Below, one piece after another: positions 7,867 through 39,751 of a DNA stretch of 47,986 bases (position 1 is the first letter of the stretch; each line of letters starts with the position of its first letter). The stretch is taken from assembly GCA_937859835.1 (NCBI GenBank), contig CALMAN010000160.1, forward strand, positions 1-47,986, read 5' to 3'. This stretch comes from an uncultured Acidipila sp. (lineage in GTDB: Bacteria > Acidobacteriota > Terriglobia > Terriglobales > Acidobacteriaceae). The notes below the pieces were generated by a model. It was not told the DNA's origin, ran no database searches, and saw only the letters and a list, made by a program, of their open reading frames with translations. Made by a program: the position numbers and the translations under genes.

Positions 7867-7944
7867 GGCTCTCCTGTCGCGGGCTCGCCATGACGCCGGA
7901 AACAAGCGCCCGGAAAAGAGCACCCGCACGGGTATACTACCGCT

Positions 7945-21638: not shown

Positions 21639-22424
21639 TTGGCGGGACAAGCACCGGAAACAGCGAGCGAGCTCCGCAGGAGGCTCCATGAAGCAGGGCC
21701 CTGGTTCCATAACCTGCGCATCGACGGGATCCAGACAGCTCCGGATCACTTTCTCGGCGACTACCCTTCTGTGAAATGGCGTCACCTGGACGAAACGCTG
21801 CCGCGAGACCTTTCCGGCAGGACCGTTCTCGATATCGGCTGCAACGCCGGCTTCTACTCGATTGAGCTGAAGCGCCGCAACGCGGCGCGCGTGCTGGGCG
21901 TGGATACCGAGGAGTTTTACCTGAACCAGGCGCGGCTGGCGCGGGACGCGCTTGGCCTCGAGATCGACTACCAGCACTGCTCGGCTTATGACGTGCTTTC
22001 GCTCCCCGGGCAGTTCGACATCGTGCTCTTTATGGGCCTTTTCTACCACCTGCGCTACCCGCTCTTTGCGCTTGACCGCGTTGTGCAAAAGATCGCGCCG
22101 GGAGGCACCCTGGTGTTTCAAACGCTGTACCGCCCGCACACGGCAAACAGAGCCAAGCCGGTCGAGCCCGACTACCCCTTTTGGGAGCAGCAAATCTTTG
22201 CCGACCCGGAGTTTCCGCAGATGCGTTTTTTTGAGCACTGCTTTTCGGGCGACAAAACCAACTGGTGGGTGCCCAACCGTGCCGCCGTCGAGGCCATCCT
22301 GCGCTCAGCCGGGCTGCGCATTGACGCGCACCCGGAAGACGAAACCTGGCTTTGCACACCGGTCAGCGTCGCCGGGCACGGGCAATCGATCCAAGAGCGC
22401 GAGTTCGCGGGCAAGCTTTGGTAA
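21639..22424 (+). CDS. SAM-dependent methyltransferase, CmoB-like (TIGR04290-type by recollection)
   Basis: TTG start; ELRRRLHEAGPWFHNLRIDGIQTAPDHFLGDYPSVKWRHL...LSGRTVLDIGCNAGFYSIELKRR: CmoB-type N-terminus plus Rossmann MTase motif I. Confidence 0.85.
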   Translation: MAGQAPETASELRRRLHEAGPWFHNLRIDGIQTAPDHFLGDYPSVKWRHLDETLPRDLSGRTVLDIGCNAGFYSIELKRRNAARVLGVDTEEFYLNQARLARDALGLEIDYQHCSAYDVLSLPGQFDIVLFMGLFYHLRYPLFALDRVVQKIAPGGTLVFQTLYRPHTANRAKPVEPDYPFWEQQIFADPEFPQMRFFEHCFSGDKTNWWVPNRAAVEAILRSAGLRIDAHPEDETWLCTPVSVAGHGQSIQEREFAGKLW

Positions 22425-22434
22425 GGGGAGCGAG

Positions 22435-23376
22435 ATGGTAGAAGCGGTCATGTTGTGGAACGAACCGAACAACCTGTCGCACTGGAACTTTCACCTGGAT
22501 CCGGGGTGGGAACGGTTTGCGGCCATGGTGCGCTCTGCGTCCCGCGCCATCCGCGCCATCAATCCCGGGCTCAAGATTGTGCTCGGCGGGGTATCGTCCT
22601 GCGATTCACGCTGGATCGCGCGCATGCGCGGCCTGGGTGCGCTTGAAGAGATCGACGTGGTCGCGGTGCACGGCTTTCCGCTGGACTGGAACCACTGGCA
22701 CGTCAACGAGTGGCCGGAGCGGATCGAGGAAACAAGCGCGGCCGCCGGCCTGCCGGTTTGGGTGTCGGAGGTGGGCGCGTCGTCGTTTGGCGCCGAAGAG
22801 GTTGCGGCCTTTGGACTTGAGCGGATGACCGGGCTGCTCCAGGGCAAGGTGGATCGCATTCACTGGTATAGCCTTTACGACCTGCCGCCGAGCTGGGAAG
22901 CGACCACGCGCCACAAGGAAGCCGAAGGCTCGTCCTACTACCGCCACTACTACATGGGCCTGCTGCGCCACGACGGCACCCCCAAGCAGACCACCGGGAT
23001 GTTTCCCGCTCTGGTGGCCGCAAACCCGGCTCTCGGGCTTTGCCAGTGGTTCCACTACAACGACCCGCGGCTCGATGCGGCCGTCGGCTGGTTGCACCGT
23101 TTGGGCGTGCGGTCGCTGCGCACCGGGGTCAGCTGGGCCGACCGCTTCCGTCCCGACGCCGAGCAATGGTTCGACCGCCAGATGAGCGCGCTCGCTCCTT
23201 TTGACACCACCATGACCTTGTGTTTCACCCCGGACCACCTGGGCATCGAGCCGCACTGGGCCAGCCCGCCCCGCAACATAGAAGACTTCACGGAGTTTGC
23301 GCGCTGGGCGGTAGGCCGCTATGCCGCTCCGCAGCCCGTACTGCCCGAGCCGGAAGGCTTTGCGGTCGCGGTCTAG
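22435..23376 (+). CDS. Cytoplasmic glycoside hydrolase/beta-xylosidase-like protein (GH-A clan, apparently circularly permuted)
   Basis: ATG with AAGGGGAG RBS; acid/base-like motif MLWNEPNN at the N-terminus, nucleophile-like VWVSEVGASS, C-terminal WLHRLGVRSLRTGVSWADRFRPDAEQWFDRQMSAL; no signal peptide. Confidence 0.75.
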   Translation: MVEAVMLWNEPNNLSHWNFHLDPGWERFAAMVRSASRAIRAINPGLKIVLGGVSSCDSRWIARMRGLGALEEIDVVAVHGFPLDWNHWHVNEWPERIEETSAAAGLPVWVSEVGASSFGAEEVAAFGLERMTGLLQGKVDRIHWYSLYDLPPSWEATTRHKEAEGSSYYRHYYMGLLRHDGTPKQTTGMFPALVAANPALGLCQWFHYNDPRLDAAVGWLHRLGVRSLRTGVSWADRFRPDAEQWFDRQMSALAPFDTTMTLCFTPDHLGIEPHWASPPRNIEDFTEFARWAVGRYAAPQPVLPEPEGFAVAV

Positions 23377-23399
23377 ATCGAACAAAAGAAAGGGAAGCG

Positions 23400-24521
23400 A
23401 TGCGGAGCAAAACAATTCTGATTACCGGCGGGGCCGGCTTTGTGGGCTCGCACCTTGCCGATGGGCTTTTGCGCGAGGGCCATGCGGTCCGGGTGCTCGA
23501 CAACCTGACCCCGCAGGTGCACGGCCGCAAGCTGCCTACCTATCTGTCGCCCGAGGTGGAGCTGGTTTACGGCGATGTGCGCGACCGCGCTGCCCTGCAG
23601 CAGGCCCTTGAAGGCGTCGACGCGATCTACCACTTTGCATCCCGGGTAGGCGTGGGCCAGTCCATGTACGAGATCCAAAGCTACATGGACGTGAACACCC
23701 TGGGCACGGCGCAGCTGCTTCAGGCCCTGCTTGATGGAAAGCAGCCGGTGGAGAAGCTGGTCGTCGCCTCGTCCATGTCGATCTATGGCGAAGGAGCCTA
23801 CACTTGTGCCGGGTGCGGCCCGGTGGCGCCGCCGATCCGGGGCAATGCGCAGCTGCGCGCCGGGGACTGGGACCCCCGCTGCCCCGGCTGCGCGGGCCCG
23901 CTCAGCCCCCGGCCCACGGCTGAAAACAAGCCGAGCGAGGTAACCAGCGTGTACGCCCTGTCCAAGCGCGACCAGGAAGAACTGTGCCTTACCTACGGCC
24001 GCGTGTACGACCTGCCGGTGGTTGCGCTGCGCTTCTTCAACATCTACGGCACCCGCCAGGCCCTTTCCAATCCGTACACCGGCGTGGCTGCAATCTTTGC
24101 CGCGCGCCTCCTGAACAACCAGCCTCCGCTGGTCTTCGAGGACGGCGAGCAGCAGCGCGACTTCGTCAACATCCACGACATCGTGCGCGCCAACCTGCTC
24201 GCGCTGGAAAGGCCGGAAGCAAACGGCCAGGTCATCAACATCGGCTCAGGCCAGCCTATCTCCATCAGCCGGGTCGCCGAGCTGCTCACCACCGCACTGG
24301 GCAAGGAGCTGCCCCACCAGCTCACCCGGCGCTACCGTTCCGGCGACATCCGCCACTGCTACGCCGACCTGACCCGGGCCCGAACGCTGCTCGGCTACCA
24401 GCCGCAGGTCACGCACGAGCAGGGCTTTGCCGAGCTGGTCGAGTGGCTGCGCGCCCAGCAGGCCGAAGACCGGGCAGAAACCATGATGGGGGAGCTGAAC
24501 GCATACGGACTTTCCGCGTGA
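23400..24521 (+). CDS. NAD-dependent epimerase/dehydratase (UDP-sugar 4-epimerase-like) with CxxC...CxxC insert
   Basis: MRSKTILITGGAGFVGSHLADGLLREG, VYALSKRDQEE (YxxxK), LRFFNIYGTRQ; CAGC...CPGC insert. Confidence 0.88.
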   Translation: MRSKTILITGGAGFVGSHLADGLLREGHAVRVLDNLTPQVHGRKLPTYLSPEVELVYGDVRDRAALQQALEGVDAIYHFASRVGVGQSMYEIQSYMDVNTLGTAQLLQALLDGKQPVEKLVVASSMSIYGEGAYTCAGCGPVAPPIRGNAQLRAGDWDPRCPGCAGPLSPRPTAENKPSEVTSVYALSKRDQEELCLTYGRVYDLPVVALRFFNIYGTRQALSNPYTGVAAIFAARLLNNQPPLVFEDGEQQRDFVNIHDIVRANLLALERPEANGQVINIGSGQPISISRVAELLTTALGKELPHQLTRRYRSGDIRHCYADLTRARTLLGYQPQVTHEQGFAELVEWLRAQQAEDRAETMMGELNAYGLSA

Positions 24522-24601
24522 GTTCGGCATCGCACCTACACGGGCCCGAGCAAACGCCCGTTCTCCAGGCGAAGGATCTTGAAGCGACTGAGGAGGAGAA
24601 G

Positions 24602-25708
24602 TTGAAGAGCAGGACCGAACGTAGAGTTCTGATCACCGGCGGCGCGGGATTTATCGGCAGCAACCTGGCCGCCCGCCTGCTCCAAGTGCCCTCCACCCAC
24701 GTCATGGTGTACGACAACCTGGCTCGGCCCGGGGTCGAGCGCAACCTGGCCTGGCTCAGAAGCCTGGCATCGCCCGGCCAGCTTGCCGTGGTGCCCGGCG
24801 ATGTGCGCGATCGCACCCTGCTGGCAGAAGCTGCCGTGGGTGCGACGGAAATCTTTCACTTCGCCGCACAGGTTGCGGTGACCAGCTCGATCGACGACCC
24901 TCTCGCCGATTGCCACACCAACATCCTGGGCACCCTGCACGTGCTTGAAGCCGCCCGGGCCGCGCGCATTCCTCCGCTGGTTCTGTTTACCTCGACCAAC
25001 AAGGTATATGGTTCGCTTGAAAAGCTGCCCACGCAGCGCATCGGCGACCGGTATGCGTTCGCGGACAGTGCCTTTGAGGGAGTTTCCGAGCAGCATCCGC
25101 TTGACTTCCATTCCCCCTACGGCTGCTCCAAGGGTGCCGCCGACCAGTATGTGCACGACTACGCCCGCATCTACGGCGTCCCCACCGTGGTGTTCCGCAT
25201 GAGCTGCATCGCCGGCCCGCGGCAGCTGGGCACCGAAGACCAGGGCTGGGTCGCGCACTTTTTGTATTCCGCGCTCGAAGGCAACCCGGTGACCATCTAC
25301 GGCGATGGGTGCCAGGTACGCGATGTGCTCCATGTCCACGACCTCGTGGACGCCATGGAGGCGGCCGTCGCGCACCGGCAGCGCACCGCCGGCGAGGTGT
25401 TCAACGTGGGCGGAGGCCTCGCACAAGCCGTTTCTGTGCGCGAAGCCCTGGCCCTGATCGAGCGGCAGACCGGGCGTCCGGTCGAGGCCCGCTACGCCGA
25501 GGCGCGACCCGGGGACCAGCGAATCTACATCAGCGACACGGCCCGGTTGCGCACAGCCACCGGATGGCGGCCGACGCGCTCGCTCGACCGGACCTTTGCC
25601 GACATCGGTGCCTTTTGGCAGAGCGATCTCGCGAGCAGGGAAGCGCGCGCGGCGAGGGGCGAAGCCGAGCCGCAGCTCGCTTTCGCGCAAGAGGCGCAGG
25701 GGGCATGA
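24602..25708 (+). CDS. NAD-dependent epimerase/dehydratase (extended SDR)
   Basis: TTG start behind GAGGAG; RRVLITGGAGFIGSNLAARLLQ..., SPYGCSKGAADQYVHDYARIYGVPTVVFRMSCIAGPRQLG. Confidence 0.87.
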   Translation: MKSRTERRVLITGGAGFIGSNLAARLLQVPSTHVMVYDNLARPGVERNLAWLRSLASPGQLAVVPGDVRDRTLLAEAAVGATEIFHFAAQVAVTSSIDDPLADCHTNILGTLHVLEAARAARIPPLVLFTSTNKVYGSLEKLPTQRIGDRYAFADSAFEGVSEQHPLDFHSPYGCSKGAADQYVHDYARIYGVPTVVFRMSCIAGPRQLGTEDQGWVAHFLYSALEGNPVTIYGDGCQVRDVLHVHDLVDAMEAAVAHRQRTAGEVFNVGGGLAQAVSVREALALIERQTGRPVEARYAEARPGDQRIYISDTARLRTATGWRPTRSLDRTFADIGAFWQSDLASREARAARGEAEPQLAFAQEAQGA

Positions 25709-27012
25709 ACTTCGCGCTGGTGAATCCCCGCTGGAGCTTTGAAGGGTCAACGTATTTCGGCTGCCGCGACCCCCACCTGCCGCTCGAACTGCTCCATGCC
25801 GAGAGCGAGCTGCGGCGCGCCGGGCACGCCGTGCGGCTTGTGGATGCGCAGATGGAAGCACTCACGCCGGCGGAGGTTTCGCTCCGGCTCGCCGGGTTCG
25901 CGGCGGATTTTGTCGTCCTCCCGACCACCCCTTCCTACCTCTTCTGGCGCTGCCCGCCGCCCGAGCTGCGCATCCCGCGCGAGTGGGTCAGCGCGCTGCG
26001 CCCGACGGTCGCTCCCCGCGCCCGCTTTGTTCTGATCGGTCCCCACCCTTCGGTCACGCCTAGGGCTACGCTGCGCAAAACGGGCGCCGACCTGGTTCTG
26101 CGTGGCGAGCATGATCAGGTCCTGCCCCTGCTCGCGTCCACTCCGTGGGGCTCGATCCCCGGCTGCTGCTGGCAGGACACGCAGGGAACGCACCTGAGTG
26201 AGGGTTTGGGCGTCACCGCGATGAGCTCGCTGGCCCCGCTCGACTTTGCCGGCTACCCGGTCGAGCTCCACACCCACAAGCACCACGTCTTTGCCCAGCT
26301 CGATGGGCTGGGGGCCGAGCTTGAATATGCGCGCGGCTGCCCCTGGTCCTGCTCTTTCTGCAACAAGACCCTGTTTCGCAACAAGTACCGCGAGCGGCCT
26401 GTTTCCACGGTGCTGGCTGAAATCGACGCCCTGGTCGCCCGCGGCGTGCGCTATATCTACTTCATCGACGAAATCTTCGGCGTTGGCCGCAACGTCCGCA
26501 CGATGCTCGAGGCGATCGCAACCAGGCCTGTGACGATCGGCTTCCAAACCCGCATTGACCTTTGGGACGAGGAAGGCTTTGATCTGCTTGGCCGCGCCCA
26601 CGCCATCTCCATCGAGTGCGGCATCGAGTCCATCACCGAAGCCGGCCGGGCGGAGCTGAACAAGAACTGCCGCATGGGCACCGACCGGATCGCCGAGCTG
26701 CTCGCCTACGCCCGGCGCCGCATTCCCTGGGTGCAGGCCAACCTGATCCGCACCCCGCAGGACGACGCTGCGCAGGTGCAGGCCTGGCAGGCGGAGCTGA
26801 AAGCCAAGGGTGTTTGGGTTTCGGAACCCGTGCCGATGTTTCCTTTCCCCGGCTCGCCCTTGTACGTGCAGACCTTTGGCGCCCCGCCCGATGACCAGGC
26901 CTGGGAGCGCGCGCACCGGCACTACCTCGGCCTGTTTGGCCGGGGCGATTTCAGCGACATCCAGGAAGAGCAGCCGGTCGCGTTGGAGGAGCTGGAATGC
27001 ACGTCCTGCTGA
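25705..27012 (+). CDS. B12-binding-domain radical SAM protein
   Basis: 435 aa; B12-binding-like N-terminus and ARGCPWSCSFCNKTLFRNKYRERP (CxxxCxxC cluster); ATGA overlap with the upstream gene. Confidence 0.88.
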   Translation: MNFALVNPRWSFEGSTYFGCRDPHLPLELLHAESELRRAGHAVRLVDAQMEALTPAEVSLRLAGFAADFVVLPTTPSYLFWRCPPPELRIPREWVSALRPTVAPRARFVLIGPHPSVTPRATLRKTGADLVLRGEHDQVLPLLASTPWGSIPGCCWQDTQGTHLSEGLGVTAMSSLAPLDFAGYPVELHTHKHHVFAQLDGLGAELEYARGCPWSCSFCNKTLFRNKYRERPVSTVLAEIDALVARGVRYIYFIDEIFGVGRNVRTMLEAIATRPVTIGFQTRIDLWDEEGFDLLGRAHAISIECGIESITEAGRAELNKNCRMGTDRIAELLAYARRRIPWVQANLIRTPQDDAAQVQAWQAELKAKGVWVSEPVPMFPFPGSPLYVQTFGAPPDDQAWERAHRHYLGLFGRGDFSDIQEEQPVALEELECTSC

Positions 27013-28112
27013 CCACGGACTCGGTCGGGGGCGTTTGGACGTACACCGAAGAGTTAACGGCCGGGCTGCTGCGGCGCGGCCACCGCGTGACCCTGGTCAG
27101 CTTCGGCGGTCTGCTCGACGATGGGCAGCGGGCGTGGCTGCTCAGCATGGATGCACCCGGGTTTGAGTGGGTGGAAACCGAGTACCGCCTGGAGTGGATG
27201 GACTCACCCGGCGAGGACCTGGAGCGTTCGGCCCAGCTGCTCCGCGACCTGGTGCTGCGCGAACAGCCGGATGTGCTCCACATCAACCAGTTTGCCTTTG
27301 GCGAGCTGTCGGACACCGTGCCCGTGCTGCTGACCGGGCACAGCGACATGCTGAGCTGGTGGCAGTCGGTCCACGGCGAGCAGGCCCCGGAAACCGGACG
27401 GCTGCGCGCCTACACGGCGCTGGTGCGCGGGGGGCTGCAAACGGCCACGCAGCTGGCCGCGCCCACTGCCTGGATGGCCCGCGAGCTGCGCGAACAGTAC
27501 GGCGTCGACCGCCCGATCGAAGTGGTGCCAAACGGGCGCTCGCCCGAGCTTTTTGACGCGGGGCGGGCAAAACAGCTCCAAGCCCTGACGGTTGGCCGCG
27601 CCTGGGACCCTGGCAAGTACGTCACGCTGCTCGAAAAGGTGGAAGTGCCTTTTCCTTTGTGGATCGCCGGCGAGGCGAACTCCCCGGTTTCGGCCGTCCA
27701 CGTCCCGCGGGCCAGCGCGCCGCCGGGGCCGGGCCGCGGCGTCGGCTACCTGGGGAAGCAAAGCGCGGCGCAGCTGCGCGGGCTTTACAGCCGCACCGCG
27801 ATTTATGTCGCCACGTCCTGCTACGAGCCATTCGGGCTGGCGCCGCTCGAAGCCGCACTCAGCGGCTGCGCGCTGGTGCTGAGCGACCTGCCCACCCTGC
27901 GCGAGATCTGGGGAGACGCGGCCGTTTTCTACCCTTCGCGCGATGGGCAGGCGCTCCAGGGCGCGCTGCGCGCGCTGGGGGCCGACCCGGAGCGAACCGA
28001 GGACCTGGCCGCCCGCGCGCTGGCCCGCGCCCGCACCCGCTACACCGCCGAAAGCATGGTCGCGCATCACGAACGGCTGTACCAGGCGCTGGCGCAGGTT
28101 GCCGCCGAATGA
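26997..28112 (+). CDS. Glycosyltransferase family 4-like
   Basis: MHVLLTTDSVGGVWTYTEELTAGLLRRGHRVTLVSFGG...YVATSCYEPFGLAPLEAALSGCALVLSDLPTLREIWGDAAVFY. Confidence 0.88.
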   Translation: MHVLLTTDSVGGVWTYTEELTAGLLRRGHRVTLVSFGGLLDDGQRAWLLSMDAPGFEWVETEYRLEWMDSPGEDLERSAQLLRDLVLREQPDVLHINQFAFGELSDTVPVLLTGHSDMLSWWQSVHGEQAPETGRLRAYTALVRGGLQTATQLAAPTAWMARELREQYGVDRPIEVVPNGRSPELFDAGRAKQLQALTVGRAWDPGKYVTLLEKVEVPFPLWIAGEANSPVSAVHVPRASAPPGPGRGVGYLGKQSAAQLRGLYSRTAIYVATSCYEPFGLAPLEAALSGCALVLSDLPTLREIWGDAAVFYPSRDGQALQGALRALGADPERTEDLAARALARARTRYTAESMVAHHERLYQALAQVAAE

Positions 28113-29215
28113 CCCGGCGCCGCATTGTGTACTTCGCGCACTCGATCCGCTCGGACTGGAACAACGGCAATGCCCATTTCCTGCGCGGGCTGCTGCGCGG
28201 CCTGGGCATCCTGGGCCACGCGGTTACGGCTCTGGAGCCGGCCGACGGCTGGTCCTACACCCACCTGCTCGGGGAAGGCGAGCGCGGGCGCCACTCCCTG
28301 GCCCAGTTTGCCGCGACCTACCCCGAGCTGGACGTGCGCACCTACGCCGGCGCCGGCGACCCCGTGATCCCCGAGCTTCTCGGCGAAGCCGAGATCGTCC
28401 TGGTGCACGAGTGGAACGATCCGGCGCTGATCGAGCGGGTGCTTGCCCTGCGCGCGCAGGGCGGCTTTCGCGCGCTTTTCCATGACACCCACCACCGCGC
28501 CTCGTCGAGCCCCCAGCAGCTGCGCCGCCTCCACGTGCCTGCCTTTGACGGCGTGCTTGCCTTTGGCGAGGTGCTGCGGCGCGTGTACCGCGAGCGCTGG
28601 GGCGCCGGCCGGGTGTGGACGTTGCACGAGGGGGCGGACCTGTCGGTGTTTCGGCCCCGGCCAGGGAGGACGCCCGAGCGCGACCTGGTCTGGATCGGCA
28701 ACTGGGGTGACGGCGAGCGCACGGAAGAGCTGCAGCAGTTTCTGCTCGCACCGGCCTGCGACGCCCCGGCCCGGGAGGCGCTGATTTACGGCGTGCGCTA
28801 CCCGGAGGAGGGGCTCCATGCGCTGGCGCGGGCGGGTGTGGCGTATGGCGGCTACCTCCCCAACCTCGAGGCTCCGGAGGCGTTCGCGGCTGCCCGCTGC
28901 ACCGTGCACGTGCCCCGGCGGCAGTACGCGGCCGAGTTGCCCGGCATCCCCACCATTCGCGTCTTTGAAGCGCTGGCCTGCGGCATCCCGCTGCTTTCCG
29001 CTCCCTGGCGCGACGCCGAATCGCTTTTTGGCCCGCACGACCTTCTGTGGGCGCACCCCTCCGCCGAAATGACTTGCCGCCTTCGCGAGCTGCTCACGGA
29101 CACTGCCGCGCGCGCGCAGCGCGCCGCCGAGGGGCTTGCCACGGTGCGGGCGCGGCACACCACGCTCCATCGCGCCGAGCAGCTTACCGCCATCTGCGAA
29201 GAGGTGCTGCGATGA
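28109..29215 (+). CDS. CgeB-like glycosyltransferase
   Basis: IVYFAHSIRSDWNNGNAHFLRGLLRGLGILGHAVTALEP...IPTIRVFEALACGIPLLSAPW; ATGA overlap. Confidence 0.75.
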   Translation: MTRRRIVYFAHSIRSDWNNGNAHFLRGLLRGLGILGHAVTALEPADGWSYTHLLGEGERGRHSLAQFAATYPELDVRTYAGAGDPVIPELLGEAEIVLVHEWNDPALIERVLALRAQGGFRALFHDTHHRASSSPQQLRRLHVPAFDGVLAFGEVLRRVYRERWGAGRVWTLHEGADLSVFRPRPGRTPERDLVWIGNWGDGERTEELQQFLLAPACDAPAREALIYGVRYPEEGLHALARAGVAYGGYLPNLEAPEAFAAARCTVHVPRRQYAAELPGIPTIRVFEALACGIPLLSAPWRDAESLFGPHDLLWAHPSAEMTCRLRELLTDTAARAQRAAEGLATVRARHTTLHRAEQLTAICEEVLR

Positions 29216-30324
29216 ACGTTCTGGCCTTCGGCTCCTCGCTCCTGTCTTCCTACTGGAACGGCGCAGCCACCTACTACCGGGGCGTGTACAAGTACCTCCA
29301 CGCGCTCGGCTATTCGATTACCTATGCGGAGCCCGACGCCTTCGGCCGCCAGCAGCACCGCGACTACGAGGCGGTCCCGTATGCGCGCTCGGTGGTGTAC
29401 CAGCCGGGCCGGTGGGAAGCCGTGCTGCGCGAGCTTGCGCCCGGAGCCGACCTGCTGGTCAAGCACTCGGGGGTCGGGGTCGATGACGCGGAGATTGAAG
29501 CCGCGCTGCCTGGCTATCGCGCCCCGGGGGCGCTGGCCTGCATCTGGGATGTGGATGCCCCGGCAACGCTGGCGCGCACCGAGGCCGACCCGCTCGACCC
29601 CCTGCGCCTCGCGCTGCCCCGGTACGACGCGGCCCTGCTCTACGGGGGCGGCCCGGAGGTGGTGGCGCGCTTCAAGGCGCTGGGCGTGCCTGTGTGCGAC
29701 CAGATCTTCAATGGGCTCGACCCGGATACGCACCACCCGGTCGCACCCGACCCGCGTTTTGCAGCCGACCTCCTTTTCCTCGGCAACCGCCTGCCCGACC
29801 GCGAGCGCCGCGTGGAAGAGCTGTTTTTGTGTGCCGCCGAGCAGGCTCCGGAGATGCAGTTCCTGCTCGGTGGCGAGGGCTGGGGCGGCAAGCCGATGCC
29901 CCCCAACGTACGCTGGCTGGGCCACGTGCCTACGGGCGAGCACAATCGCGCCAACTGCTCGGCCCGCATGGTGCTCAACATCAACCGCGACTCCATGGCG
30001 GAGGTCGGTTTTTCGCCGCCTACCCGGGTCTTCGAGGTGGCGGGCAGCGGGGCCTGCCTGCTTTGCGATGCCTGGCCGGGCGTGGAAAGCTTTTTCACTC
30101 CCGGCGAGGAAATCCTGGTGGTCCGCGACGCGGACGAGATCGTGTGGGCGCTGCGCAACTATTCCGCGGCGGAAGCAGCGGCCTGCGGCGCGGCGCTGCA
30201 CCGGCGCGCTCTGCGCGAGCACACCTATGCCGAGCGCGCGAGCAAGGCGCACGCGGTGCTGCGGGCGCTGTGGACCAGCAAGCGGCAACCGCTCCAGGGC
30301 CGTGAAGTGCCCTCCTCCTCATGA
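29212..30324 (+). CDS. CgeB-like glycosyltransferase
   Basis: MNVLAFGSSLLSSYWNGAATYYRGVYKYLHALGYSITYAEPDAFGR...SPPTRVFEVAGSGACLLCDAWPGVESFFTPGEEILVV; ATGA overlap. Confidence 0.8.
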   Translation: MNVLAFGSSLLSSYWNGAATYYRGVYKYLHALGYSITYAEPDAFGRQQHRDYEAVPYARSVVYQPGRWEAVLRELAPGADLLVKHSGVGVDDAEIEAALPGYRAPGALACIWDVDAPATLARTEADPLDPLRLALPRYDAALLYGGGPEVVARFKALGVPVCDQIFNGLDPDTHHPVAPDPRFAADLLFLGNRLPDRERRVEELFLCAAEQAPEMQFLLGGEGWGGKPMPPNVRWLGHVPTGEHNRANCSARMVLNINRDSMAEVGFSPPTRVFEVAGSGACLLCDAWPGVESFFTPGEEILVVRDADEIVWALRNYSAAEAAACGAALHRRALREHTYAERASKAHAVLRALWTSKRQPLQGREVPSSS

Positions 30325-31406
30325 ACATCAGCATCCTTGGTCTTACCATCACCTCGGCCTGGGGCAACGGCCACGCCACTACCTTTCGCTCCTTGTGCGC
30401 CGCTCTGCACACCCGCGGGCACCAGATCCGCTTTCTGGAGCAGGACGCGCCCTGGTACCGGGAGCACCGCGACCTCCCGGCGCCTTCCTTTTGCGAGGTC
30501 ACGCTCTTCGGCGAGTGGCCTGAAGCCCAGCCCTGGCTCCACGCCGCGGCCGGCTGGAGCGATCTGGTCATCATCGGGTCGTACTTTCCGGAGGGCCTCG
30601 CGGCCGCCGACTACCTGTTTGCGCGCGCGCACTGCCCGGTTTTCTTCTACGACATCGATACGCCGGTCACCGTGGAACGGCTGCGCACGGCCGGGGAAAC
30701 CGAGGCCTTGCGCGCTGCGGACATCCCCCGCTACGACGCCTACCTGAGCTTTACGGGCGGCCCCATCCTCGACGAGCTGAAAAGGCGCTTTGGCGCCCGG
30801 CGCGCCCTGCCGCTTTACTGCTCCGTGGACCCCGCGGCGCATCGTCCACAGCCGGCAGACCCGCGCTACGGGTGCCTGCTCAGCTATCTCGGGACCTATG
30901 CCGCGGACCGCCAGCCCAAGCTCGATGCGCTTTTTGTGGAGCCTGCGGGAAGCTTTCCTGGCGACCGTTTTTTGCTCGCCGGGGCACAGTATCCCGAGTC
31001 CCTGGGCTGGCCGGACAATGTGTGGCGCTTCGAGCACATCCCGCCGGCCGAGCACCCGTCGTTCTACTGCTCTTCCCGCTTCACCCTCAATCTCACGCGT
31101 ACCAGCATGGTCGCCGCGGGGTGGTCCCCATCCGTGCGTTTGTTTGAGGCCGCAGCCTGCGGGGCGGCCATCATCTCGGATGGATGGCCGGGCCTTGCGG
31201 AGCTGCTCACGCCCGGCAAGGAAGTCCTGCTCGCCGAAAACACGGCGGACATGGTGCGCCTGCTTCGCCAGACCACCGAGGCGGAGCGTCGCGCAATGGG
31301 GCAAGCGGCGCGCGCCCGCGTGCTTGCCGAACACACCAGCGCGCAGCGCGCCGGTGAGCTTGAAGCCGTGGTCGCCGGCGTCCAGGCTTGCAGCGAGGCC
31401 GGCTGA
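30321..31406 (+). CDS. CgeB-like glycosyltransferase
   Basis: MNISILGLTITSAWGNGHATTFRSLCAALHTRGHQIRFLEQDAPWY...SPSVRLFEAAACGAAIISDGWPGLAELLTPGKEVLLAEN; ATGA overlap. Confidence 0.8.
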   Translation: MNISILGLTITSAWGNGHATTFRSLCAALHTRGHQIRFLEQDAPWYREHRDLPAPSFCEVTLFGEWPEAQPWLHAAAGWSDLVIIGSYFPEGLAAADYLFARAHCPVFFYDIDTPVTVERLRTAGETEALRAADIPRYDAYLSFTGGPILDELKRRFGARRALPLYCSVDPAAHRPQPADPRYGCLLSYLGTYAADRQPKLDALFVEPAGSFPGDRFLLAGAQYPESLGWPDNVWRFEHIPPAEHPSFYCSSRFTLNLTRTSMVAAGWSPSVRLFEAAACGAAIISDGWPGLAELLTPGKEVLLAENTADMVRLLRQTTEAERRAMGQAARARVLAEHTSAQRAGELEAVVAGVQACSEAG

Positions 31407-38539: not shown

Positions 38540-39751
38540 GTGAACCTGCCTGCACTTCGCCTGCTTTGCTTCCATCTTGCTGTTCTCCTGACTGCTGGTC
38601 CCCTGCTCGGGCAGGCGGGCAGTGCTCCCGGCACCCTGGCCGCAACTCCGCCCATGGGCTGGAACAGCTGGAACCACTTTGCCGAAAAGGTCACGGACGC
38701 GGATGTGCGCGCCGCGGCCGATGCCCTGGTCACCAGCGGGATGCGCGACGCAGGCTACGTTTACGTCAATATCGACGACACCTGGGAAGGCAAGCGCGAC
38801 GAGCACGGCAACATCCAGACCAATGCAAAGTTTCCAGACATGAAGGCGCTTGCCGACTACGTCCACGGCAAGGGCTTGAAGCTCGGCATCTACTCCTCGC
38901 CCGGCCCGTACACCTGCGCGCACTTTGCGGGCAGCTACCGGCACGAGAAGCAGGATGCCCGCACCTATGCCGCGTGGGGCATTGACTATCTCAAGTACGA
39001 CATGTGCTCCTACGGCAGCATGATGGACAAGAAGTATGGCAAGCCCTCGGCGGCCAACGCAGCCAAGCGGCTGGCCGCCGACCAGGCCGTGTACCGGAAG
39101 ATGCACAAGGCGCTGGCCGCCACCGGGCGCCCCATCGTGCTTTCCATGTGCCAATACGGCTGGGATGATGTGTGGACGTGGGGTCCAAGCGTGGGCGGCA
39201 ATCTGTGGCGCACCACCGGCGATATCAACGACACCTATGCGCGCATGGCGGAGATCGGCTTCAACCAGGCCGGCCTGGGCAGCTATGCCGGGCCCGGCCA
39301 CTGGAACGACCCGGACATGCTCGAGGTGGGCAATGGCGGCATGACGGATGATGAATACCGCACGCACATGAGCCTGTGGGCCCTGCTCGCGGCCCCTCTG
39401 CTGGCCGGCAACGACCTGAGCAAGATGACCCCTGCCACGCTCGGGGTGCTGACCAACCGCGACGTGATCGCGATTGACCAGGACGCGCTGGGGCGGCAGG
39501 GCGTCCGGCTGTCGCAGGTGGGGACGGAAGAGATCTGGACCAAGCCCTTGAGCGGCGGCGCGACCGCCATCGGGCTGTTTAACCGCAGCCCCGAGCCGCG
39601 GCAGATAACGCTTACCCTCGCAGCCGCGGGACTGGGTGCGAACGCGACACTGCACGACATTTGGGCCAACGCGGATGTGCCCGTCGCCTCGAACAGCTAC
39701 ACGGCTTCGGTGCCCGGGCACGGCGTGGTCCTGCTCCGCGCCGTCCCCTAG
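38540..39751 (+). CDS. Secreted alpha-galactosidase, GH27
   Basis: LAATPPMGWNSWNHF, GIDYLKYDMCSYG nucleophile region, GHWNDPDMLEVGNGGMTDDEYRTHMSLWALLAAPLLAGNDL; signal peptide; GTG start. Confidence 0.93.
   Translation: MNLPALRLLCFHLAVLLTAGPLLGQAGSAPGTLAATPPMGWNSWNHFAEKVTDADVRAAADALVTSGMRDAGYVYVNIDDTWEGKRDEHGNIQTNAKFPDMKALADYVHGKGLKLGIYSSPGPYTCAHFAGSYRHEKQDARTYAAWGIDYLKYDMCSYGSMMDKKYGKPSAANAAKRLAADQAVYRKMHKALAATGRPIVLSMCQYGWDDVWTWGPSVGGNLWRTTGDINDTYARMAEIGFNQAGLGSYAGPGHWNDPDMLEVGNGGMTDDEYRTHMSLWALLAAPLLAGNDLSKMTPATLGVLTNRDVIAIDQDALGRQGVRLSQVGTEEIWTKPLSGGATAIGLFNRSPEPRQITLTLAAAGLGANATLHDIWANADVPVASNSYTASVPGHGVVLLRAVP

Follow-up and report, generated by a model that had tools for sequence, protein, structure and literature searches.

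Is a protein that opens on the acid/base strand of a glycosidase barrel, and carries the first three strands of that barrel at its end, a natural circular permutation, and does it do the work of its conventionally ordered counterpart? The question is raised by a gene (here called the permuted GH) in a window of 47,986 nucleotides, the whole stretch of DNA analysed, from an uncultured Acidipila species (contig CALMAN010000160.1). The 313-amino acid reading frame lies at 22435-23376 of the forward strand, with an ATG at 22435 and a stop codon at 23374-23376. In translation, the protein starts with MVEAVMLWNEPNNLSHW and presents the motifs WNEPNN (residues 8-13), VHGFP (78-82), VWVSEVG (108-114) and HWYSLYDL (143-150), followed by LGVRSLRTGVSWAD (223-236), SPPRNIEDFTEFARWAVGRY (277-296) and a short tail. 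The initial annotation had reported this frame with its motif order reversed relative to known barrels, and both frame and order match the translation exactly.

To establish where the protein begins, we compared the start region across relatives. The methyltransferase gene on the 5' side is read in another frame and ends at 22424; extended upstream of 22435, the GH frame overlaps it. A single scan of one genome per species returned 227 relatives from several phyla, of which the best 80 are 57-66% identical from residue 1 to approximately residue 297. An ATG, GTG or TTG occupies the residue-1 column in 79 of these 80, bearing out the earlier claim that no N-terminal segment is missing. In 34 of the 80, a stop codon in the same frame lies no more than 15 codons ahead of the start, and across the set the sequence 5' of the start is not conserved. 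In 69 of 77 permuted-GH loci the methyltransferase is directly upstream, and the median gap is -4 bp (an ATGA-type overlap). Several relatives terminate directly past RRYA, and the minimal family protein is therefore 294 amino acids long. The same swapped order is found in complete genomes and replicons (Sorangium cellulosum So ce26, Minicystis rosea and Sinorhizobium meliloti 1021 pSymB), which excludes an assembly artefact. Judged from these alignments, the predicted N-terminus is genuine. Two apparent gene fusions (L051 and L060) were rejected as tblastn extensions beyond a stop.

The closest homologues were identified by plasmid searches, which returned 31-38% identical proteins annotated as epimerases. 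These are standard-order GH domains of about 300-310 amino acids, fused to the N-terminus of an NAD-dependent epimerase/dehydratase (SDR2) and carried by Rhizobium, Xanthomonas and Verrucomicrobiota. When the Rhizobium etli protein (WP_011427519.1, locus L091) was searched with the native family profile, residues 191-294 matched 11-116 with 41.5 bits and residues 3-191 matched 119-305 with 97.8 bits. With the rotated profile the two blocks merged into a single match, 3-289 aligning with 15-302 at 151.5 bits (E = 5.5e-48). For the domain from a Verrucomicrobiota genome (L164), native blocks of 71 and 129 bits became a single rotated block of 208 bits, and the domain of Rhizobium sp. NXC14 (L093) likewise gave two swapped blocks with the native profile, as did standard-order glycosidases of phylum-mates (L085-L088). 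PslG, the nearest solved structure by sequence profile (albeit at only ~32 bits), was matched as two abutting swapped blocks (family 196-293 to PslG 21-129, and 2-164 to 131-301), as had been predicted for the two parts of the protein, and no standard-order match along the full length was seen. In the reverse direction, a standard query run against 46 genomes with the permuted form typically hit the permuted gene in two swapped pieces, approximately query residues 115-305 and then 12-116.

Rotation scans peaked at the same place. Profiles rotated to start at residues 157-205 matched in one block instead of two, their single-block scores being 36-44 bits, up from 17-18; with rotated sequences the score peaked for new N-termini at ~157-205 and was lower for other rotations. 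The local BLOSUM62 score of the window protein against L164, the best-matching standard homologue, rose from 307 to 460 on rotation (shuffled maximum, 57), with 38.5% identity over 273 residues. In this pair the cut falls between RYA and MVEAVMLWNEPNN in the permuted protein, corresponding to RYGQHFEWVELWNEPNN in the standard one; roughly one residue is missing there, and a few residues link the former termini. Pfam matches improved 30-100 fold (GH5 from 0.02 to 0.0002, GH39 from 0.0099 to 0.00032). Swapped blocks that cover the homologue end to end, with a single-block maximum at one rotation, are what a natural permutation should leave, and the standard order of the closest homologues is the decisive evidence. 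We regard it as nearly certain that the permuted GH is a natural circular permutation of a clan GH-A barrel.

The predicted fold agrees with the alignments. AlphaFold2, run on a 77-sequence alignment, gave one barrel of eight alternating beta/alpha units (pLDDT 91.5, pTM 0.89) with strands at residues 2-7, 47-54, 75-80, 108-113, 142-145, 200-203, 227-233 and 257-263, which is the order b4-b5-b6-b7-b8-b1-b2-b3 of clan GH-A. The C-terminal ~100 residues supply three of the eight units and do not form a separate domain; uncertainty is confined to the b8-a8 loop (residues ~155-170), and a separate run on a distant Sorangium member produced the same barrel. Thus, the swapped blocks, the gain on rotation and the modelled barrel all uphold the permutation first proposed from motif order. 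Sequential Foldseek searches of the PDB found no full-length clan GH-A match at low rmsd: GH10, GH2, GH53 and GH128 superposed over 150-220 columns only (~3.4-4.5 Å), and other TIM barrels matched at full length, but at 7-10 Å. This pattern is the one expected for a rotated strand order. Barrel closure and the geometry of Glu10 and Glu112 were judged from secondary structure, pTM and the partial Foldseek matches only; on that basis the model is of a complete (beta/alpha)8 barrel with a full set of secondary-structure elements.

Table 1. Features of the permuted GH and its cassette in the window
Feature	Position	Strand	Evidence or remark
TIGR04290 family methyltransferase, directly upstream	21639..22424, start approximate	+	NCBIfam 337 bits, cut-off 300
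Circularly permuted clan GH-A-type glycosidase gene	22435..23376	+	313 aa; core 1-297, variable tail 298-313
Residues 1-196, canonical b4-a4 to b8-a8 (C-terminal two thirds of standard barrel)	22435..23022	+	HMM vs L091, PslG; AF2
Codon of Glu10, predicted acid/base, WNEPNN, end of canonical b4	22462..22464	+	Invariant in 77 relatives; aligns with WNEPN of GH-A standards
Codon of Glu112, predicted nucleophile, VWVSEVG, canonical b7	22768..22770	+	Invariant in 77 relatives; aligns with WITETGY / FWLTEVG of standard-order relatives
Residues 197-297, canonical b1-a1-b2-a2-b3-a3 (N-terminal third of standard barrel, here C-terminal)	23023..23325	+	HMM vs L091, PslG; AF2
SDR1, NAD-dependent epimerase/dehydratase	23400..24521	+	NCBIfam GalE/LegB-type sub-cutoff matches; conserved neighbour
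SDR2, NAD-dependent epimerase/dehydratase, stand-alone	24611..25708, start approximate	+	Orthologue carries N-terminal standard GH elsewhere
TIGR04295 B12-binding radical SAM protein	25705..27012	+	NCBIfam 618 bits, cut-off 400
Glycosyltransferase, family-4 like	26997..28112	+	
Glycosyltransferase, PF13524 (Glyco_trans_1_2)	28109..29215	+	
Glycosyltransferase, PF13524	29212..30324	+	
Glycosyltransferase, PF13524	30321..31406	+	

The gene belongs to a nine-gene glycan-biosynthesis cassette (window positions 21639-31406) that is conserved across several phyla and probably makes and transfers unusual sugars; cassettes of other species also include genes for inositol-phosphate synthase, UDP-glucuronate decarboxylase and Gfo/Idh/MocA proteins. 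In alphaproteobacterial cassettes, genes for inositol-3-phosphate synthase and a histidine phosphatase family protein stand beside the permuted GH (L090:11484-13192, L177, L179 and L095:12239-13923), hinting at an inositol-linked product. Myxobacterial and Bryobacterales cassettes have a sugar nucleotidyltransferase-like gene (MWGIIPAAGxGSRIQPLAFSKELLP; L031:4179-5168, L054:4516-5268) between a glycosyltransferase and the methyltransferase. We found no paper on the TIGR04290 or TIGR04295 families, or on the cassette, in the open-access literature.

The standard-order homologues occur in the same kind of cassette, a point that the initial annotation had missed. The fused GH-SDR2 genes of L091 and L093 are surrounded by SDR1, TIGR04290 and four glycosyltransferases, one of which belongs to family 4. 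By synteny, the standard GH is placed between SDR1 and SDR2, and SDR2 is stand-alone in permuted cassettes. The two forms thus share barrel family, catalytic motifs and cassette, but the standard one has b1-b8 order and is fused to SDR2, whereas the permuted one is a separate gene beside the methyltransferase. The fusion suggests that the product or substrate of the standard GH is handed to the epimerase. On the Xanthomonas sacchari R1 plasmid (L092:7693-8561), the standard GH is spread over two frames that meet near 7896, and the annotated start falls inside the GH domain, reflecting a frameshift or sequencing error.

To reconstruct the history of the two forms, we built maximum-likelihood trees of modest size. 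In the tree of rotated sequences, rooted on standard-order relatives, 27 permuted rows form one clade (support 100/96) and 27 standard SDR2-fused rows another (99/95), the two being sisters with long stems. The single permuted clade implies one permutation event, and because all outgroups are standard, its direction was from standard to permuted. Members of the permuted clade come from Acidobacteriota, Myxococcota, Pseudomonadota and Verrucomicrobiota, a spread suggestive of lateral transfer. Stand-alone SDR2 proteins of permuted cassettes are scattered among GH-fused ones in the SDR2 tree, with that of S. meliloti inside the fused Rhizobiaceae. A minimum of about three changes is then needed, not counting the row L080_solo, which is mislabelled: its locus ends just before the fused domain, and it is the same gene as L097_fus.

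The distribution within one family bears on whether the forms are equivalent. TIGR04290 scored over its cut-off in 48 of 299 Rhizobiaceae genomes; 24 of these carry only the permuted form, 22 only the standard form, two carry both and none lacks both (Fisher p = 2e-11, uncorrected for phylogeny). Permuted assignments were confirmed by profile in examples (L116, L119 and L120), and a further six genomes contain the standard form but lack the methyltransferase. Since none of the 48 is without a GH of either topology, each form can probably stand in for its counterpart, and we consider it likely that the permuted GH is functionally equivalent to the SDR2-fused standard domain. The alternative, that they are two glycosidases with different substrates belonging to alternative versions of the cassette, is less likely but deserves weight. 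The long stems of the sister clades would fit it, as would the eight examined genomes that hold both forms. Moreover, the B12 radical SAM gene is often present in permuted cassettes and UDP-glucuronate decarboxylase in rhizobial standard ones, so the cassette products may differ. Against this, S. meliloti has a permuted GH in a decarboxylase-type cassette, only two of the 48 Rhizobiaceae have both forms, with none lacking both, and the standard copy often loses a catalytic Glu where the forms coexist.

Coexistence was observed in two Rhizobiaceae and six genomes outside that family, the latter being few and including some MAGs. In five of the eight cases the standard copy lacks a catalytic Glu. 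The acid/base motif reads WNKPKN in L096 and WNKPRN in L098; L099 combines WNQPNN with a nucleophile Glu-to-Gln change; the nucleophile is replaced by Ala in L097; and the motif is lost in L064 (8182-10270). These Glu-less domains look, from their sequences, like pseudo-glycosidases. Of the others, L100 keeps both Glu residues with the Asn lost, and both Rhizobiaceae copies keep both Glu residues. Degenerate motifs among coexisting SDR2-fused domains include ITATG and LCSPPP. That coexistence itself drives Glu loss was not significant (two of five independent pairs, p = 0.5), and it is a suggestive lead only.

The permuted proteins themselves keep both predicted catalytic glutamates. Asn9-Glu10 (b4), His79 (b6), Glu112 (b7), Trp144 (b8) and Arg229 (b2) are invariant in 77 of them, and these are residues of the predicted clan GH-A active-site type; at the level of motif and model, an Asn-Glu acid/base ends b4 and a nucleophile Glu ends b7, as in that clan. 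Such invariance of WNEPNN, Glu112 and the other active-site-type residues argues against a catalytically inert barrel that serves the neighbouring methyltransferase as a sugar-binding or scaffolding subunit. We hold that reading improbable, even though the tight translational coupling to the methyltransferase would suit it and pseudo-glycosidase domains do occur fused to SDR2. Assignment to a family is less direct. Pfam Glyco_hydro_cc (PF11790) matches only residues 3-146, at 25.5 bits against a cut-off of 21; the matched stretch corresponds to profile positions 67-209 of 237, and relative L060 falls below that cut-off. Weak GH53, GH39 and GH5 matches also lie within the first 150 residues, and the last 118 residues alone gave no Pfam match; the protein therefore starts a third of the way into the profile. 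Neither GH39 (PF01229; 15.2 bits native and 20.1 rotated, cut-off 26) nor GH5 (PF00150; 14.8 and 21.4, cut-off 23.5) reached its threshold, and no curated NCBIfam model matched. Thus, the permuted GH appears related to GH39 by sequence and is not assignable to it by Pfam.

Two further readings would deny the permutation itself. In one, the gene is split or mis-annotated, a C-terminal barrel fragment joined to an unrelated or partial domain that works by domain swapping or with a partner; this is very improbable, as the canonical b1-a3 segment is single and complete, AlphaFold2 gives one barrel in two relatives, and both the minimum length and the start codon are conserved. The other, an ordinary non-homologous TIM barrel with WNEPN-like motifs convergent on its first strand, draws on the internal symmetry by which any halves may align and on the existence of sequential structural alignments to unrelated TIM barrels, but scarcely merits belief when the motifs are in register over the whole length, rotated identity and E-value are as given above, the blocks abut exactly at the cut and other rotations score lower.

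Enzyme barrels are seldom permuted in nature; most such events are old, and the two resulting forms usually have separate functions and settings. In the present case, unlike those, both topologies occur in the same cassette and in related bacteria. Among known systems, PslG (GH39, Pseudomonas aeruginosa; 4zn2, 5bx9) is also a clan GH-A-type barrel and comes from an exopolysaccharide operon, but it has standard order and a C-terminal beta-sandwich. GH70 glucansucrases are a natural permutation of the GH13 barrel (clan GH-H) with the break next to a3/b4, probably produced by duplication and truncation (PMC4919382, PMC11046441). They differ in clan and mechanism family, are large secreted multidomain enzymes and start with a3, whereas the permuted GH has a3 last and b4 first. 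Transaldolase relative to class I aldolase (PMC2213659) and the CE4 domain of PgaB (PMC13366581) are natural barrel permutations that are not clan GH-A glycosidases, and we found no report of their topologies interchanging in one gene cassette. Nor did we find a permuted clan GH-A or GH39 enzyme in the open-access literature, CAZy, preprints and subscription papers being outside the search.

On the whole, the gene product is very likely an intact clan GH-A-type glycosidase of the cytosol, with a barrel that underwent circular permutation once in evolution. The chain is opened between a3 and b4, directly ahead of the strand that bears the acid/base residue, and a few residues connect the original C-terminus (a8) to the original N-terminus (b1). 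Duplication and truncation of an SDR2-fused-type standard domain could have produced the gene, which would then have spread laterally, the standard domain of SDR2 then decaying or disappearing in the presence of the permuted gene. No tandem-duplicated intermediate was found in 80 loci, each of which has exactly one permuted domain. G1173 (L172), considered as an intermediate with a duplicated a3 region, proved to be an ordinary permuted member. The first strand lies at the very start of the protein and leaves no room for a signal peptide, which would make the enzyme cytosolic. We infer an active retaining beta-glycosidase or transglycosidase, which might trim or recycle an intermediate of the cassette pathway, either a glycan or a glycoside, although this role is tentative. 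The odds seem evenly balanced that this is the first natural permutation in clan GH-A, with interchangeable topologies and repeated replacement of the SDR2-fused domain through decaying pseudo-glycosidase intermediates that are still visible. Because tractable organisms carry each form (S. meliloti the permuted, R. etli the standard), the cost or benefit of permutation is directly testable by gene swap.

Sequential fold and profile searches under-annotate permuted proteins, as the C-terminal third without a Pfam match illustrates. In public records the permuted GH is named beta-xylosidase, glycosyl hydrolase or hypothetical. In the model organism S. meliloti 1021 it lies at pSymB 257009-257938 (L094), where the PLSDB table has no gene and other strains are annotated with a beta-xylosidase. 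Elsewhere in the window, a frame at 38540-39751 with TPPMGWNSWNHF near its start resembles, by eye only, a GH27-type alpha-galactosidase.
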